Source of the DNA: Adineta ricciae
Lineage: Eukaryota; Rotifera; Eurotatoria; Adinetida; Adinetidae
NCBI GenBank assembly: GCA_905250025.1
Contig: CAJNOJ010000162.1
Location: 178,110-242,109, forward strand
Length of the DNA stretch: 64,000 nt
Direction of reading: 5' to 3'
How positions within the stretch are numbered: position 1 is the stretch's first letter; each line of letters starts with the position of its first letter. Position numbers and translations under genes: made by a program. Shown one piece after another: positions 29,871-39,684 of this stretch. A model generated the notes under the pieces. That model searched no databases and had not been told where the DNA came from. It saw only the letters and a list, made by a program, of their open reading frames with translations.

Positions 29871-32800
29871 TTAATGTGTTCGATAATAACTAATAATTTC
29901 CATGACATGTTCAGGGAAGTTGATATCATCATTAAGTTGTTGTCCTTTTCGTAAATATTCCTCTTTCGTTAACGAATCCGTGCCGAGCATTTGTTTACCC
30001 CATTCGACTTTGTTCTGTTCAAGTTTTGTACTAATCTCTTCTTTCGTTATCTCGTTATGTACCTGTGCAAATTGCAGTACTTTCAATGTTGTTAAAGTTT
30101 GATTTTCTTTCAACGCATCTTTCAATTGCATCAAACCACGTTGTGAAATACCGTTGAATGTCAAATCAATGGACCGAATATGATGATTCAATCGAATCAA
30201 TCGGCTAATTTCTGTTGCTCCTTCATCGCCAAGAACGTTATCTAATCCACCAAGTAAAATAGTTGCTTTCATGTAACCGAGATTTAATTGTTGGAGTGAT
30301 GGATGTGAAATTAAAGCATCCACTAGCGCACGCGCACCATCAACGCCAATACAATTCGATGCAAGACCCAATCGTTTCAAACGTTGATCATGTTTAAGAC
30401 CAAGAGCAATTTCGCACGCACCTGCGTCACCTAATGCATTGCACGACATATACAACGATTCTAAATGGTTGTCATGTTGTTCGAAATGTAAACGAATAAC
30501 ACGTCCGCTTTTAACTGTCAAGCCATTTGTGTCAATATATAAATGCTTCAATGTTCGATTGGATTGAAAGGCATTGAATAAGATTTCACAGCCTTCATCG
30601 AGTAAACCAGTGTTGAGTAGATCTAATGTTTGTAAATAGTGATTTGTTGTTAACATGTGAGCAATATGAACAACACCAGATGATAATATCGGATTACGTT
30701 TTAGCCAAAGTGCTTTGACTTTGGTATCTGTTGCTAATGCATCACATATTAACGACATACAATCACCATCGAAATTATTTCCAGCAATATACCATGTATC
30801 GATGTTGGAATCTGTGTTATAACGAATATATGCTGAAATTGCTTCAGCACCTGGACGACCAACGATATTATTTCCTGTAAAAGAGTAACAATCCTATTTT
30901 AAATTTTCTTTTTTTATTCGCGACAACTCACCCAATAATAATCGATTAACAACGGAACTACATTTCATTGCCTCGAGCAATGGTTGTATGCCTTTTGGAC
31001 CAACAACTTGTTTACATAAATCTAATCGTCCACCCGTCATGATAGCACCACGTGAGAAGACAATCGATTGATTGTCTTCGCCTGGTCCTGGTTTATTCAT
31101 TACCAAATGTTCTAGCAGCGGTTGTAAGTCTTCCAAAGAACATGGGACAACTAAAACGGAGAAAATCGTTCGAAACATGTTTCCTAAGCAATCAACACGA
31201 ACCAGGTTCCGGCTCCGGATTCGCAATGTATGATGATGGCGGAGCATTCAATAGTTGTTCTCGTTGTTCTTTCGTATATCGAAAAGCGCGATCTTTTCGA
31301 CTTCGTGAACGGACTTGTTCATTTACGAAATTAGGTGATGCTTTTTCCAGCACATGGCATACCGACGATATCAATCGTTTATAAATTTGATAGCAAAAAC
31401 CTTTATCCGCCTGTTGTTGTTTTTCACTTTTAGTGCCTGTAGTATCGATCGGATTCATATACTTAGCTATTTCCTTTGCCATAACTAAACAATATGTATG
31501 CCATTCGAAGCTTGTCTGTCATAGAAGAAAACGAACTTACTTGTACTTGGATTTGTAGGATTATTCGCAATGCGTGGTGCTTCTTTTGCACAATTGCTAA
31601 TCCATTGTTGATTTTTAGTCATCATTTGTTCTTCTTGCTCATTAGCTAATTCATCTGGTTGATTTAGTACTGCTCGGGAATCACGTTTCAATTGTTCACC
31701 AAATATCTTCACACATGCATATTTCAGGTTATCCAGCGATGTCTTTTCAGCAGAAAATTCTTTTTCCATTTCCAGAACGGACAAATACAAATTCTTCAAA
31801 TCCGACCAACTGCCATATTTCGGCACGAGATCTATATACGACGAAAGAACTTGCGCCGGTTTTTTCAAGTAAAGCAATGTCCAATATCGAAAGAACGGCG
31901 CGATGGTACCTTGCACATCTTTCGATTCACTATTGTGGAATGTCGTTCGTTGACACCAGACAAGTAACATCACATCATCGAGAAGATAAGTATCAACATG
32001 TTCGATAAGTTCTTGGAGAGGTTTCGAAGAATCGATCGAAGCCGGTAGACCGATTGGTACAATAGGCAATTTATTCTGTTTTCGTTCTATTGCGGGTAAT
32101 GCGGAAACTTGTTTCTGATGATATGAAATAGTCGCTTCCAGCTTTTCTTCGAACGTTCTCAACATTTGAGTTTGCTGTGTGCTAGGGTTGTCCCGCGTCT
32201 CGATCTTATTGGACAGACGACTTTGTTGTTCAAGTAGAAACTGTCGAATGTCGTTGTTCGGCCAGGTGTTTGGCGTGAAATGACCACCCGAATGAGATTT
32301 AATCAATGGATTTTCAAAAGCCTCTGCTAATTTCAATGATCGATCGTTATTAATCAAAACATCATTAATTCCATAGATATGTAACGATGCAACATTTTTT
32401 ATCGCCTGTGATTTCATCAGTTGTTCGTGACTCTCCGCGCGTGATGCAAATCCAGAAATCAATATGGCGAATTCGAATGAAACGTTTCCAAACGGTTGTA
32501 AACCAGATAAGATTCCACCAAGCGACGCACCTTGCTACACAAGAGAAAAGGCGAGAATTTCAGTATAGACTATGCTCGAGTGTAATACATACCGCAAAAC
32601 CCAAAACACCATCGAAAGGCCCTTCTGATTTGAATAATTGATCGATATAATGTAAGGAAACATCTAGATGATGATAAAATTTGCTATCTTTCGATGCATT
32701 CCACCATTGTCGTTGGTAGCCAATGTCAGGCATGTTTCCGTCGCCGAAGGCGGCTAATAATTGTTCTTTAACTTCACCACTTGGGTTGTAAGGTAATGGA

Positions 32801-33711
32801 GCATTGGCGAAATAGAACGTGGCAACATCTTTCAGTTGTTTGAATAGTTTTTTTGCACTTCGTTTCAAACTGTTCGAATTCTGATGAAAACCGTGAAGAA
32901 CAAGAATCTTTAATAGTGGACCTGTCGATGGTATCAAACATGGAACTTCATGTGTAACGGTACAATTCTGTGAATTCGGTTTCGTTTGTGCTATTTGAAC
33001 GGATTGTACAAATCCATTTCGTGCAACTTTCAAATATTTTTCTTCATCAGCGGTTGTTTTTCGATCGAGTAATTGATTTCGATGGGGATAACGGCCGAAT
33101 GATTCAATGACTTGCTGATGATTTCGAGCTGCACGTGCATTGGCAGCATATCGTCGACGTAGATCACGTTGAGTAACTTCGGTGACGAGATCATTCATGA
33201 GATCAGCACCTTTTGTCGTATGAACAAGTTCTTCAGAGTGTACTAATGGTAAATAGATGAACATTCGTTCAGGTAAACTGTAAATTGTGACATGCTTTGA
33301 ATCTTGAATGATATCAAGAGTCAATTGTAGTGCTAATCGATCGAATTCAAACATTTTTGCTGTACCACGATAGATATTTCGAGGAAATTGATCTAATAAA
33401 ATGATCAATGCGAGTTTACCACGATGAGTTGTTTGCCAACGTTGATAAAGAGCGCTATCGGGTATTGTAGCACTGGCTAAATATTGTTCAAATTTATCCT
33501 TGATTTCTTGATCAACTTTTTCATCGACTCTAAACCATAATTTTGTATTTAATGGATACGTTTTCGACCATGTATTAATATTTTCACCAAACCAATACGA
33601 ATAGATCGATTCTATTGCTCGTAGATCTTCATCGATCAGAACATCAACTCGATTATTTAACGGTTGAATGTTGTTGATAGGAGAAAAATGAGTATCAACG
33701 ATTGCAGTCAT
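29871..33711 (-). CDS. Four-module fusion: DUF924, FSH1-like pseudo-hydrolase, DUF2828-like, leucine-rich repeats
   Basis: Five exons: 32593-33711, 31541-32534, 31203-31484, 30932-31150, 29871-30874. Their lengths sum to 3618 nt, giving 1205 residues without an internal stop. Residues ~25-240 are DUF924 ('SYWFGENINTW', 'LALIILLDQFPRNIYRGTAK', 'LPLVHSEEL', 'SFGRYPHRNQLLDR'). Next is an FSH1/OVCA2-type alpha/beta hydrolase ('KILVLHGFHQN', 'DGVLGFAQGASLGGIL', 'IYGINDVLINNDRS', 'SHSGGHF'); the nucleophile Ser of GFSQGA is Ala. Then a DUF2828/TROVE-like part ('LVPKYGSWSDLKNLY', 'CAKEAPRIANN', 'YQIYKRLISSVCHVLEK'), then RNI-type leucine-rich repeats ('LWLKRNPILSSGV', 'LDLTFNGISQRG'). The first two joins are inside single exons; the link to the LRRs rests on predicted introns. 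Function unknown. Confidence 0.72.
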
Positions 33712-34289
33712 GTCTCTATGGCGAATAGACTAAGAAAACTATGTGTATTCATTCGTATGTTGCAATGCATTGCATCACATGGTCATTGCACAACTCATGG
33801 TAAATATTGCAATCAGATGAATAACAACTCTGTATTTTCTTGTGTGAAAGAAAATACTTAGAGAGGGTGTGGGTATGAGTGAGGGTGAGAGTTAATAGAT
33901 AATACTTATACCCCCACTACATGTCTATAGGTTGAATATCACGAATACATGGAAAATACCAAGAGAGAAAAGCGGATTCTAGGGTCTACATTTCCTCTCT
34001 TAAGAAAAACATTTTTTAGAAAAATGAAAAAAAAAACGCATGATTACACGTCTAATAAAGAAATCATTGATTATGTTTCACGAAAAGAATAAATTACAGT
34101 ACAATATCGAAAACATGCGAACAAGATCTTGAAATACACATTCGTCCATTTACAAAGAAGTTTGACAATTCCATACCGTTGTCATTTCTTTCTAAACAAA
34201 ACATATCGTCCATGCTGTATTGTAAATATCTATTCATTTGGTATATTACTAACGTAAGATTAACTTTTACTTACTAGACTTTATTGAAT
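33712..34289. other. Intergenic, promoter of the fusion gene
   Basis: AT-rich. It has a short GT-rich patch at 33865-33895 (GGGTGTGGGTATGAGTGAGG) and nothing else that I can name. Confidence 0.4.
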
Positions 34290-35772: not shown

Positions 35773-37183
35773 TTAAGATAATTGTAATAATGATGGAAAA
35801 TATTGCTTTGTCAAATCAAACATCATTTCAGGTATCCAATGAATATTTTCATTTCTGTCCTGATCTAATTCGTTTAGCATTGGCAAGTATTTCGATAATT
35901 GATGATAGAAACGTATCGGTGTCATTGCGAATTGTCCTAATTGATGATTATAAATATTCGCAAAGCAACTTGCTAATACGTTATTGGGCATTATTGTACC
36001 TTTAAAGAAAATAAAAGAGCGAATAGAATTATAAGCGATGGTATGTGTTTCGCAAACGTACCGGATGTAGTTAATGGTCCATAAAAACCTATTTTGTGTT
36101 CGATTTCAATTCGAATGATTTTTGATTGAGTTAGCTTTTTGTCAGAAGACACCACGAAAAGATAATCCCCAACAATTACCTTTTTAGCTGGAATGTATTC
36201 GAAAATACCTTTTATAGAAACAACTGCAATTAGGTGTAAAGCAGTCAAACTAATCGAGTGATTTGATTCTGTGTGCAGAGTGTAGAACATCGCTTTAATA
36301 AAGAAAGCAAAGCAATTAAATGTAATAGATTAACTTATAGAAATTACTTTTAGTATAGTTATTTTTATCAAGCATCATAATCACTTCCGTTTTGATTAGA
36401 TTTATCCCATCAGAAGTAATGAGAGCATCATAGCTATGTAATTCATCGATTCTCTTTTTTTGTCCATCGTATAATTCGATCCAACTGTCAGCCGCAAAAC
36501 ATGGAGGAGGTGTCGTTGTCGCTGTCGTTGCATTTGTTGTTGTCATTGTTGCTCTTGTCGCCGTCGTTGTTGTTGATGTTATTGTTGTTGTTGACGTTGT
36601 CGACGTTGATAATGTTGATGTTGACGTTGATTTCGTTGTTGTCGATGTTGTTGACGTTGATGTTGATGTTGATGTTGATGTTGATTTCGTTGTTGTCGAT
36701 GTTGATGTTGTTGTTGACGTTGATGATGTTGACGCGGTCGATGATGTTGATGTTGATGTTGATGTCGATTTCGTTGTTGTCGATGTTGATGTTGTTGTTG
36801 ACGTTGATGATGTTGACGCGGTCGATGATGTTGATGTTGATGTTGATGTCGATTTCGTTGTTGTCGATGTTGATGTTGTTGTTGACGTTGATGATGTTGA
36901 CGCGGTCGATGATGTTGATGTTGATTTCGTTGTTGTCGATGTCGATGTTGTTGTTGATGTTGACGTGGATGATGTCGATGTTGATTTCGTTGTTGTCGAT
37001 GTTGATGTTGTTGTTGATGTTGACGTGGATGATGTTGACGTGGATGATGTTGACGTGGATGATGTTGACGTGGATGATGTTGATGTTGATTTCGTTGTTG
37101 TCGATGTTGATGTTGTTGTTGTTGTTGACGTTGATGATGTTGACGCGGATGATGTTGATGTTGATGTTGATTTCGTTGTTGTC

Positions 37184-37214
<31 letters not shown>

Positions 37215-37321
37215 ATGATGTTGATGTTGATGTTGATGTCGATCTCGTTGTTGTCGGTGTTGTTGTTGTTGATGTTGACGTTGATGATGTTGACGTGGAT
37301 GATGTTGATTTCGTTGTTGTC

Positions 37322-37352
<31 letters not shown>

Positions 37353-39684
37353 ATGTTGTTGTTACAGCTAGAATGAAACGGTGGTAATATTTGTCGTTAG
37401 ATTATTTGTCATTGAATATGTAACACTTGATAATTAAAAGTCTGTAGTACAGTGATAAAAGTCGCTTTTCGGGTTTATCAATCTCAGTTATGTTTAACGA
37501 GTTAAAAAATTCCTAATTCTCACATACTCTATATCGGCGAACTGTTCATGACATTACATTATCTGACTTAAACGCCGTTGTGCTCGTATATAAAGGCATC
37601 ATAGATCGTCTTTCATTCTATTTATTGTGTTACGCGTATCATCTTCAAGAAAATTGATTCATTCATACGTGTAGTCCTGCTATTTGTGAATAATAAAATC
37701 ATTTGTATATACAAACAAACATTCACAGTTCTCTTCTAACACTATCAATCACATAAGCGAACTCATCAATATCAATGAGCATTTACATTCATAATGCAAA
37801 CTGTTGATTTTTATCATGTGTAAATAGAATACAATAAGCTACATCAGATTATACTTTAATAGCTTTCATATTCATAATATATCTATGTATATAATAAACG
37901 CACTTACTGGTTGCAGGGAAAATTTGTTGAATATTAACACTATTTAATCCAGATGCTATTAACGTATAATTTCCAATCTCATTTGAATTATATGTTGACA
38001 CAATAATATAATATTGTGTTAATGCTTGAAGATTCATTTGAATTTTAAATTGATTATTACCAGCACTATTATCGTCATAAGAGATTAGAAAATAATATAA
38101 ATAGCCTGGTCTAGGACCATAAAATTGAGCGTATGTATTTATTGAACCACTGCTCATAAATACATACGAACCAGTGGCAGGAACATTGATTGAATATTGA
38201 TCATAATAATAGTTCGATCCTGAACCATTAAAACGTGTAAATGTTGGATTATTTCTTGTTAATGACGACGAAACTGTTGTGTTTCTCACGTATAAATTAG
38301 CTATTTAATAAAATTCGATTAAGCTATGCTACGGTAACAGAAAAAAAAACTCAGTTACCTGTTGTTGTTGTTGGAATTGGTGGCAGTGTAACACCACGTG
38401 CCGAACAATTGTAGAATAATCGTACCTCTTCGATATCAATGGTACTCATATTATCTCGTTGTCCAATTGATATGTTTGCTACAAGTGTTTGTATTGTAGG
38501 AAGACCATTTTTAGAGAATGCATCTGTTTCATAATGCATTACAGATTTATAATCATAGGGAGTATTTTGAGTATCTACAACTGCATTCGAGTATTTATCA
38601 AAATTGGATTCCATGCCTTTATAACGAATGAAAAATGAGTAAAGATGCTTTTATAAATTATCTTTTTTTTTACCGGATTGAATATTTGCATAATTTATGC
38701 TGACATAATTATCACGATCTGGTCGTGATTGTTCATGATAAAAACCTAAGAAGAAAAACATTCACTTTATTTTTTAGTACTATGAGACATTACCCAAAGT
38801 ATGTAATAGCTCGTGCATAACTCTTCCTTCATCAATACATCCAGGATGTTGTAGTGTAACAGTACGTATCATGTTAACACCCGTATTTTGTCCAACCTGA
38901 GAGAGAAATGAATGAGAAAACTATTTTATTTTAAAACATTCTTCTTACATAAGACGAACATCCAATTCCATTGACAATAGTTATATAATATATATCAGAA
39001 GCAGTTTTTGGTCGAAATTGAATACATTTATAATTATTGACTGCTATCAATCGTTCCATTTTTTGCATTGTTGCGATAATAAATGATTCTTCTGTTGATG
39101 CTACAATGATATACTTTTACTTTCATACATGTACGTATTTGTAGTTAGTATAGAATTCTAGAGTTGAACTAATTCAGAAGGAGAATTCGGAGTCAAGTAG
39201 ATCTTCTGTTGAGAGTTATAAATAGTAATATTTATCTAAAAGTCACTTTTGTGACGATCAAAGATATTTACCATATCCAGGCGAAATTGTATAGGGTACA
39301 ATTCCATTTGTCCATGGTACAGAAGCTCCACGAAGTGCAACTCCACGCTAAAGTATAGAAATGAATTAATCAGCTTAAGTGTATTGTATAAAACTTACAC
39401 CTTCTAATCCCGACCCACTAGGAAACAACATGTCACCTTCAAATAATTTCGCTAAAATAAAGATTAACAAATTGCACATTTCGATCAGTTCTTTGAATAA
39501 AGTCATTTCGATTAACTTACGATTTTCATATGGTTTTGTTCGATTTTGTGTTAGCTGGTCCGTCTTAAATATAATATATGAACATTTTCTGTAATTCAAA
39601 GTAAATACATACCCTTGATATTGGAGTTCCATTGATTTCATTATGAAGAAAACAAATAAACAATATCTTGACCAATAAATTCAT
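35773..39684 (-). CDS. Secreted astacin metalloprotease fused to PPC-like domain, mucin stalk and Hint domain
   Basis: About twelve exons with GT-AG borders: 39613-39684, 39521-39563, 39399-39451, 39272-39347, 38949-39100, 38794-38896, 38674-38745, 38359-38616, 37908-38300, 36348-37367, 36062-36292, 35773-35999. A signal peptide (MNLLVKILFICFL) and a short pro-part (NPKLFEGDM) lead to an astacin domain: 'GIVPYTISPGY', zinc site 'HELLHTLGFYHEQSRPDRD', Met-turn 'YDYKSVMHY'. Then a PPC-like beta domain ('SINVPATGSYVFMSSG'), a ~290-residue Thr/Ser repeat, and a Hedgehog-type Hint domain beginning with catalytic Cys 'CFAADSWIEL', with 'SLTALHLIAV' (T-x-x-H) and ending 'NNVLASCFA'. The stalk exon is 1020 nt, phase 1 in and out, so the frame is kept. 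Hint domains self-cleave; this suggests release or tethering of an extracellular protease. Confidence 0.8.
36548..37366 (-). repeat. Minisatellite encoding the Thr/Ser mucin stalk
   Basis: Nested tandem repeats built from GTTGATG/GTTGTTGAC words. In the left half three near-identical units of about 84 bp (each with GACGCGGTCGATGATG) follow one another; in the right half GTTGACGTGGATGAT units of 15 bp repeat about four times. On the coding (minus) strand they read Thr, Ser and occasional Lys. The two long plus-strand frames over it (Leu-rich and Asp/Val-rich) are shadows. Confidence 0.85.

Follow-up and report, generated by a model that had tools for sequence, protein, structure and literature searches.

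A rotifer gene unites a secreted astacin protease, a Thr/Ser stalk and a Hedgehog-type Hog domain

A single reading frame from signal peptide to Hog domain

We analysed a stretch of 64,000 nucleotides (nt) from the rotifer Adineta ricciae (contig CAJNOJ010000162.1, here C162, positions 178,110 to 242,109; hereafter the window), in which a gene on the minus strand, running from an ATG at 39684 to a stop codon ending at 35773, unites a secreted astacin, a Thr/Ser stalk and a Hedgehog-type Hog domain. In the gene structure, which is a model predicted from the DNA, 12 exons join in one spliced frame of 900 codons including the stop, giving a predicted protein of 899 amino acids (aa). This protein comprises, in order, a signal peptide (assigned by eye), an FEGD-bearing propeptide, an astacin domain, a module of about 130 aa, the Thr/Ser stalk and the Hog domain. 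All 11 introns are GT–AG and measure 48–171 nt each, except for intron 9 (540 nt). The features of the gene, in window positions, are:

39613..39684, minus strand: exon 1, start codon and signal peptide (MNLLVKILFICFLHNEINGTPISR), called by eye from the hydrophobic LLVKILFICFL
39399..39563 (39563-39521 and 39451-39399), minus strand: exons 2 and 3, propeptide with FEGD, from the motif
38402..39314, minus strand: exons 4 to 8, predicted astacin (M12A) catalytic domain, residues 68–262, from PF01400 and PDB matches
37908..38300, minus strand: exon 9, module of about 130 aa with symmetric phase 1-1, from the gene model
37368..37907, minus strand: intron 9, longest of the 11 at 540 nt, from the gene model
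36511..37367, minus strand: exon 10, first part, Thr/Ser stalk of 286 aa, from composition and the tandem repeat
36348..36501, minus strand: exon 10, last part, start of the Hog domain with the catalytic Cys697 (36501..36499) and the Asp46 equivalent in MLDKNN, from Pfam and alignment
36062..36292, minus strand: exon 11, Hog domain with TxxH (TALH), from Pfam and alignment
35773..35999, minus strand: exon 12, SCFA (Cys143 equivalent), sterol-recognition region (SRR; TPIR ... IHWIP) and stop, from Pfam and alignment

In a Pfam scan of the predicted protein, the astacin family (PF01400) matched residues 68–262 with E = 2.6e-55. At E ≤ 1e-10, 17 distinct PDB sequences matched the same part, the best being 3lqb (2.1e-35), and crayfish astacin (1ast) matched at 3.7e-34. 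Animal astacins have an FXGDI motif in the propeptide and a zinc motif, HEXXHXXGXXH, followed by EXXRXDRD (PMC9848320; here and below, statements from cited papers refer to the part of each that was available). Both halves of the zinc motif are present in the spliced protein (HELLHTLGFYHEQSRPDRD), the Met-turn SIMHY appears as SVMHY (I to V), the astacin domain has four cysteines, and exon 3 contributes FEGDM, which fits the aspartate switch FXGD(I) with I replaced by M. The encoded astacin is predicted to be a secreted zinc peptidase.

At the other end of the protein, Hint (PF01079) matched residues 696–888 with E = 7.9e-41. Among solved structures, Drosophila Hedgehog came closest to the Hint part (3.5e-15; 1at0 3.4e-10), and the alignment with it continues past the Hint fold to take in the beginning of the SRR. 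The catalytic Cys697 lies in PPPCFAADSW, and the TxxH motif reads TALH. The stalk, with 156 T and 105 S among its 286 residues (91% T+S), is encoded largely by a degenerate 84-nt tandem repeat (36566-37363; 9.3 copies, 77% match); this repeat also seems to account for the extended open frames of the other strand (36423-37373 and 36434-37384). The original prediction, made from the letters alone, had placed at these coordinates one frame-consistent gene joining a complete astacin active site, a mucin-like Thr/Ser stalk and a Hedgehog-type Hint domain with its catalytic Cys and TxxH, and all of these elements are borne out.

The module encoded by exon 9 recurs in the A. ricciae genome (130 Mb in 1033 contigs surveyed, with locus counts as lower bounds), with at least 150 scored matches, the window's own included; in several loci, for example on contigs C257, C284 and C345, it stands in tandem. 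This much of the original description holds, but its label 'PPC-like' is unconfirmed, as searches with Pfam, PDB profiles, AlphaFold and Foldseek gave no support for PPC identity. In nine of nine modules scanned with Pfam, there was no PPC (PF04151) match at E ≤ 1. The nine scanned modules matched no credible Pfam family, one of them giving a weak GLEYA match (0.019) and the window module giving no Pfam match of any kind. A PDB profile search of the module found no match better than E = 0.71. A single-sequence AlphaFold model of it was poor, with a mean predicted local distance difference test (pLDDT) score of 51, and Foldseek with this model returned no match at E ≤ 0.001, a PPC chain (5sv5) appearing no higher than rank 43, with E 5.9.

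A second copy argues for one gene

A second astacin–Hog locus is present on an independent contig (C783, locus L061), with the same order and no stalk. The two loci are 72–73% identical in DNA over the module–astacin and Hog stretches. In C783, module and Hog are separated by an intron of 87 nt, which is divisible by three and contains no stop codon; the two parts therefore lie in one open frame even if it is left unspliced. Between window and C783, synonymous divergence (dS) over 234 astacin, 128 module and 201 Hog codons is 0.843, 0.852 and 0.861, respectively; values so alike put the parts at one age. The corresponding ratios of non-synonymous to synonymous divergence (omega) are 0.162, 0.245 and 0.242 (all by Nei–Gojobori, over codons outside exons 1 and 2, the frameshift site and the stalk or linker, and not split by introns). 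Astacin, module and Hog have been under purifying selection, unevenly. The C783 copy argues strongly for a single gene, which is thereby supported as originally claimed. The original prediction had named transcripts that end between 37908 and 37367 as the mark of two genes, and the open frame of C783 speaks, at the level of DNA, against such a break.

Under a two-gene arrangement, an astacin–module gene would be followed by a separate stalk–Hog gene, perhaps in a trans-spliced operon. Rotifers do trans-splice, with a described spliced-leader consensus (PMC3795323). The exact leader has no copy in the genome; 44 copies were found at up to two mismatches (41 with one, three with two), and a reversed control gave none. 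The 540-nt length of intron 9 and its poly(A)-like hexamers, one ATTAAA (37860) and one AATAAA (37626), also fit a gene end. However, a search of intron 9 (37368..37907) found no exon encoding a signal peptide, the single Met after residue 365 and before the Hog (Met682) is without a signal peptide, the exons flanking intron 9 agree in phase (phase 1), and the corresponding region of C783 is open and in frame. We rejected the two-gene and operon models on the strength of the C783 copy, the failure to find a signal-peptide exon in this intron and the positions of in-frame Met codons, and consider them very unlikely. The contig also carries a large directly repeated block and stops where the window stops, as might be expected if assembly or gene prediction had joined unrelated exons, but the same order at the identity given above on an independent contig makes such an artefact extremely improbable.

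Several observations weigh against a maintained, full-length gene. Omega is uneven, at 0.41 for the SRR-bearing last exon and 0.57 for the second part of the module. In C783, a 1-nt insertion shifts the frame (the module exon 9 is 394 nt instead of 393 nt), the donor after the first Hog exon is GC, two N occur in 10 kb, and the Hog carries D46H and C143S. C783 may be a decaying copy, or may contain a sequencing error, and the low omega of this copy may be mainly a legacy of earlier constraint. In the window, the length of intron 9 and the presence of ATTAAA and AATAAA make a shorter, astacin-only transcript possible.

Cleavage residues are kept and the sterol-recognition region departs

The window Hog keeps C1, D46 (in MLDKNN), T69, H72 and C143 (in ASCFA), equivalent to C258, D303, T326, H329 and C400 of the Drosophila Hedgehog and Shh comparison, along with the HW of HWY. 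We compared these positions across 37 near-complete Hogs of the genome (36 loci and the window), after 13 of 50 rows had been dropped as partial, duplicate or double. C1 and H72 are present in all 37, 29 have T and the other eight S at position 69, and position 46 is D in 10, H in 17 and another residue in 10, with the alignment columns of distant rows being less sure. The Thr and His of TxxH serve the N–S acyl shift, and Asp303 (D46) couples that shift to sterol attack (PMC4695875, PMC9163320). The Hog of Hedgehog also processes foreign N-termini, such as a fluorescent protein or a His-tag (PMC7242414). Given this tolerance and the conserved catalytic residues, autocleavage of the rotifer protein at Pro696–Cys697 is likely, as judged from its sequence.

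Attachment of cholesterol is uncertain. P379, R381, H433 and W434 (SHH numbering) are kept in the SRR, and counting against attachment are three departures from human SHH, H374Q, F377M and Y435I, together with a Pro immediately before the catalytic Cys (helix-1 positions of the SRR were placed by alignment with SHH and the HWY position by motif alone). In human SHH, cholesterolysis was abolished by Ala at H374, F377, R381, H433 or Y435; at Y435 it was lost with D as well but preserved with F (PMC7242414). Because the position of F377 is occupied by Leu in the aligned Drosophila Hedgehog, F377M may be harmless. Among the 25 Hogs that cover the Y435 position, 15 have F or Y and five, the window included, have I. 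Hedgehog has Gly at position −1, where both the window and C783 have Pro, as do five of the 37 Hogs overall. Pro at −1 is poor for the N–S shift of inteins and is, to our mind, the strongest point against efficient cleavage.

If Pro at −1 left the Hog catalytically dead in practice, the domain would serve as the structural C terminus of an uncleaved protease. Its occurrence in both copies fits this possibility, which we nevertheless consider unlikely, given that the active-site C, T and H are kept, that the omega of the Hog is 0.24, and that the other Hogs with Pro at −1 (L053, L055 and L056) also keep C1, T69 and H72. A tentative but serious alternative, itself a special case of the explanation that we favour, is that the Hog is a release switch, freeing the protease by hydrolysis, thiolysis or formation of a non-cholesterol adduct, with no cholesterol involved. 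The three SRR departures, read against the SHH mutant data in the available part of PMC7242414, point this way, as does the lack of D46 in many Hogs of the genome, and D303 mutants of Hedgehog still cleave with thiols (PMC9163320). Set against this are the retention of D46, C143, P379, R381, H433 and W434 in the window Hog and a Pfam Hint match that runs through residue 888.

As a whole, the locus is best explained as one gene for a secreted, self-processing pro-astacin, which we regard as probable. The precursor would enter the secretory pathway through its signal peptide, and the Hog would fold and, helped by TxxH, carry out an N–S acyl shift at Pro696–Cys697. The resulting thioester could be resolved by a sterol, another small nucleophile or water (together with tethering, the least certain step), setting the Hog free and leaving astacin, module and the 286-residue Thr/Ser stalk. 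Were the nucleophile a sterol, a long and probably O-glycosylated stalk would tether the protease to a membrane. By analogy with its family, the FEGD propeptide would keep the astacin latent until clipped.

Position 46 varies elsewhere in the genome. His stands at D46 (D303 of the fly) in L031–L035, L038, L043–L045, L048, L049, L059, L061 and L065–L068; the one published counterpart that we met is D303H, discussed as a swap of the general base that keeps activity and widens the range of substrates (PMC9163320). The Hogs of L050–L053, L055–L057 and L060 have R, Y, T or F at this position, and several of them lie behind a transmembrane (TM) segment and poly-Thr. TM-linked Hogs with neither D46 nor H46 perhaps cleave without sterol, being anchored already; L067 and L068 have a TM segment and poly-Thr yet His at position 46, against a simple anchor rule.

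Hog and astacin domains across the genome

After merging, Hint matches over the Pfam cut-off fall into at least 54 loci in the genome and astacin matches into at least 50, and the two adjoin on only two contigs, C162 (the window) and C783. At these counts over 130 Mb, chance would place an astacin on the same strand as a Hint and at most 2 kb upstream of it about 0.02 times; the two observed pairs are paralogues. The N-termini of other Hogs were read by eye from open frames in fetched loci, a subset of the at least 54. Upstream of the Hog, these have a TM segment and poly-Thr (for example, L051, L052, L053, L055, L056, L060, L067 and L068), EGF arrays (L031, L032, L059, L065 and L066, confirmed with Pfam in L032 and L065), a short Cys-rich secreted part, or a signal peptide and few residues more.

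Sibling astacins with the same module lie on contigs C272, C470, C344, C447, C345, C380 and C107, none of which has a Hint match. In C272, astacin and module are followed by a second module and a Thr linker, and C470 encodes astacin, module, Thr linker, Mucin2_WxxW and a trypsin domain. Various C-terminal domains, the Hog among them, thus seem to have been added to the astacin–module–Thr scaffold. As a separate observation, L076 (C470:11400-15000) and L025 combine astacin with Mucin2_WxxW (3.7e-06) and trypsin (3.2e-39), so that C470, as read from open frames, encodes proteases of two classes in what looks like a single gene.

In a tree of the Hogs, the window domain is sister to that of C783 (100/97), and the next branch (100/98) is C475, by eye a signal peptide, a short N-terminus and a Hog. 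Because the nearest Hog is short and secreted and sibling astacins (C470, C272) have Thr linkers, the gene could have arisen by joining: an astacin–module–Thr-linker gene would have been placed before a short secreted Hog gene. Tree and dS suggest that this fusion would predate the duplication that gave rise to the window and C783 copies. The Hedge domain (HH_signal) had no match in the predicted protein at E ≤ 1; a genome scan also returned none, a weak negative because its positive control was silent too. A pattern scan for Hogs, a method that finds close relatives only, gave no pattern match in viral contigs; in prokaryote genomes it matched 18 stretches, none of which was confirmed.

Relation to known Hog and astacin proteins

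Hogs behind varied N-termini are already known, including nematode Warthog, Groundhog and Quahog, Thog and Shog of Xiphinema, Hoglet, and GmGIN1 of Glomus (Burglin 2008, PMC2362128). Like these Hedgehog-related proteins, the rotifer protein joins an N-terminal part, often secreted, to a Hog, and the Thr-rich stretches of Thog and choanoflagellate Hoglet recall its stalk, whereas the N-terminus of Hoglet is cellulose-binding-like (PMC2362128). In the same source, GmGIN1 and Hoglet are the only proteins of lower eukaryotes with distinct other domains fused to the Hog, and no protease is described among Hog N-termini in the available part of that paper. The N-terminal part of the rotifer protein differs from Drosophila Hedgehog and Shh in being an astacin protease instead of the Hedge ligand.

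From the astacin side, the rotifer protein shares FXGD, the zinc motif, S-x-MHY and the four cysteines with crayfish astacin, meprins and BMP1/tolloid (PMC9848320), and differs from them in its C-terminal module, Thr/Ser stalk and Hog. With its sibling astacins it shares the module and, for C272 and C470, Thr linkers, and it differs from them in having the Hint domain, C470 continuing into trypsin instead. A term search of the available part of a 2023 review of astacins (PMC9848320) found neither 'hedgehog' nor 'intein', and its only 'hint' was the author name Hintze. We found no described astacin–Hint protein in our searches of the open-access literature, within which the original claim of novelty holds, and these searches also returned no paper on Hog domains or Hedgehog-related proteins in rotifers; predictions for rotifers in UniProt or InterPro may already show one. 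The shuffling of Hogs onto varied N-termini is thus known, and, as far as these searches reach, an astacin protease as the Hog-linked N-terminus is new. Considering the known Hogs with varied N-termini and the sibling astacins with other C-termini, the astacin–Hog protein is one product of Hog domain shuffling.

More broadly, and with a good deal of reserve, we suggest that rotifers could use the Hog as a general C-terminal tag that cleaves itself and adds a lipid to extracellular proteins, among them enzymes, and that they perhaps do so with no Hedgehog ligand at all; an astacin cut from its own C-terminus and esterified with sterol at the end of its mucin stalk would then be a lipid-tethered ectoprotease. 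An enzyme with a Hog tail offers a direct test of Hog action with a simple readout, the protease being either shed or bound to the membrane. The at least 54 Hint loci, with their varied N-termini and natural variants of the general base, form a ready set for questions about the nucleophile.

Surroundings of the gene in the window

The astacin–Hog gene occupies the unrepeated part between two copies of a directly repeated block of about 22.5 kb (5221-27982 and 41687-64000), the pieces of which are 84.5–96.4% identical. The main piece measures 12.4 kb at 95.2% identity, and the second copy reaches the end of the contig; the repeat is either an allelic-like tandem or an assembly join. Adjoining the gene, neighbouring frames on the minus strand (31488-33729) match DUF924 (4.5e-53) and, in two pieces, the FSH1 serine hydrolase, an apparent DUF924–FSH1 fusion.

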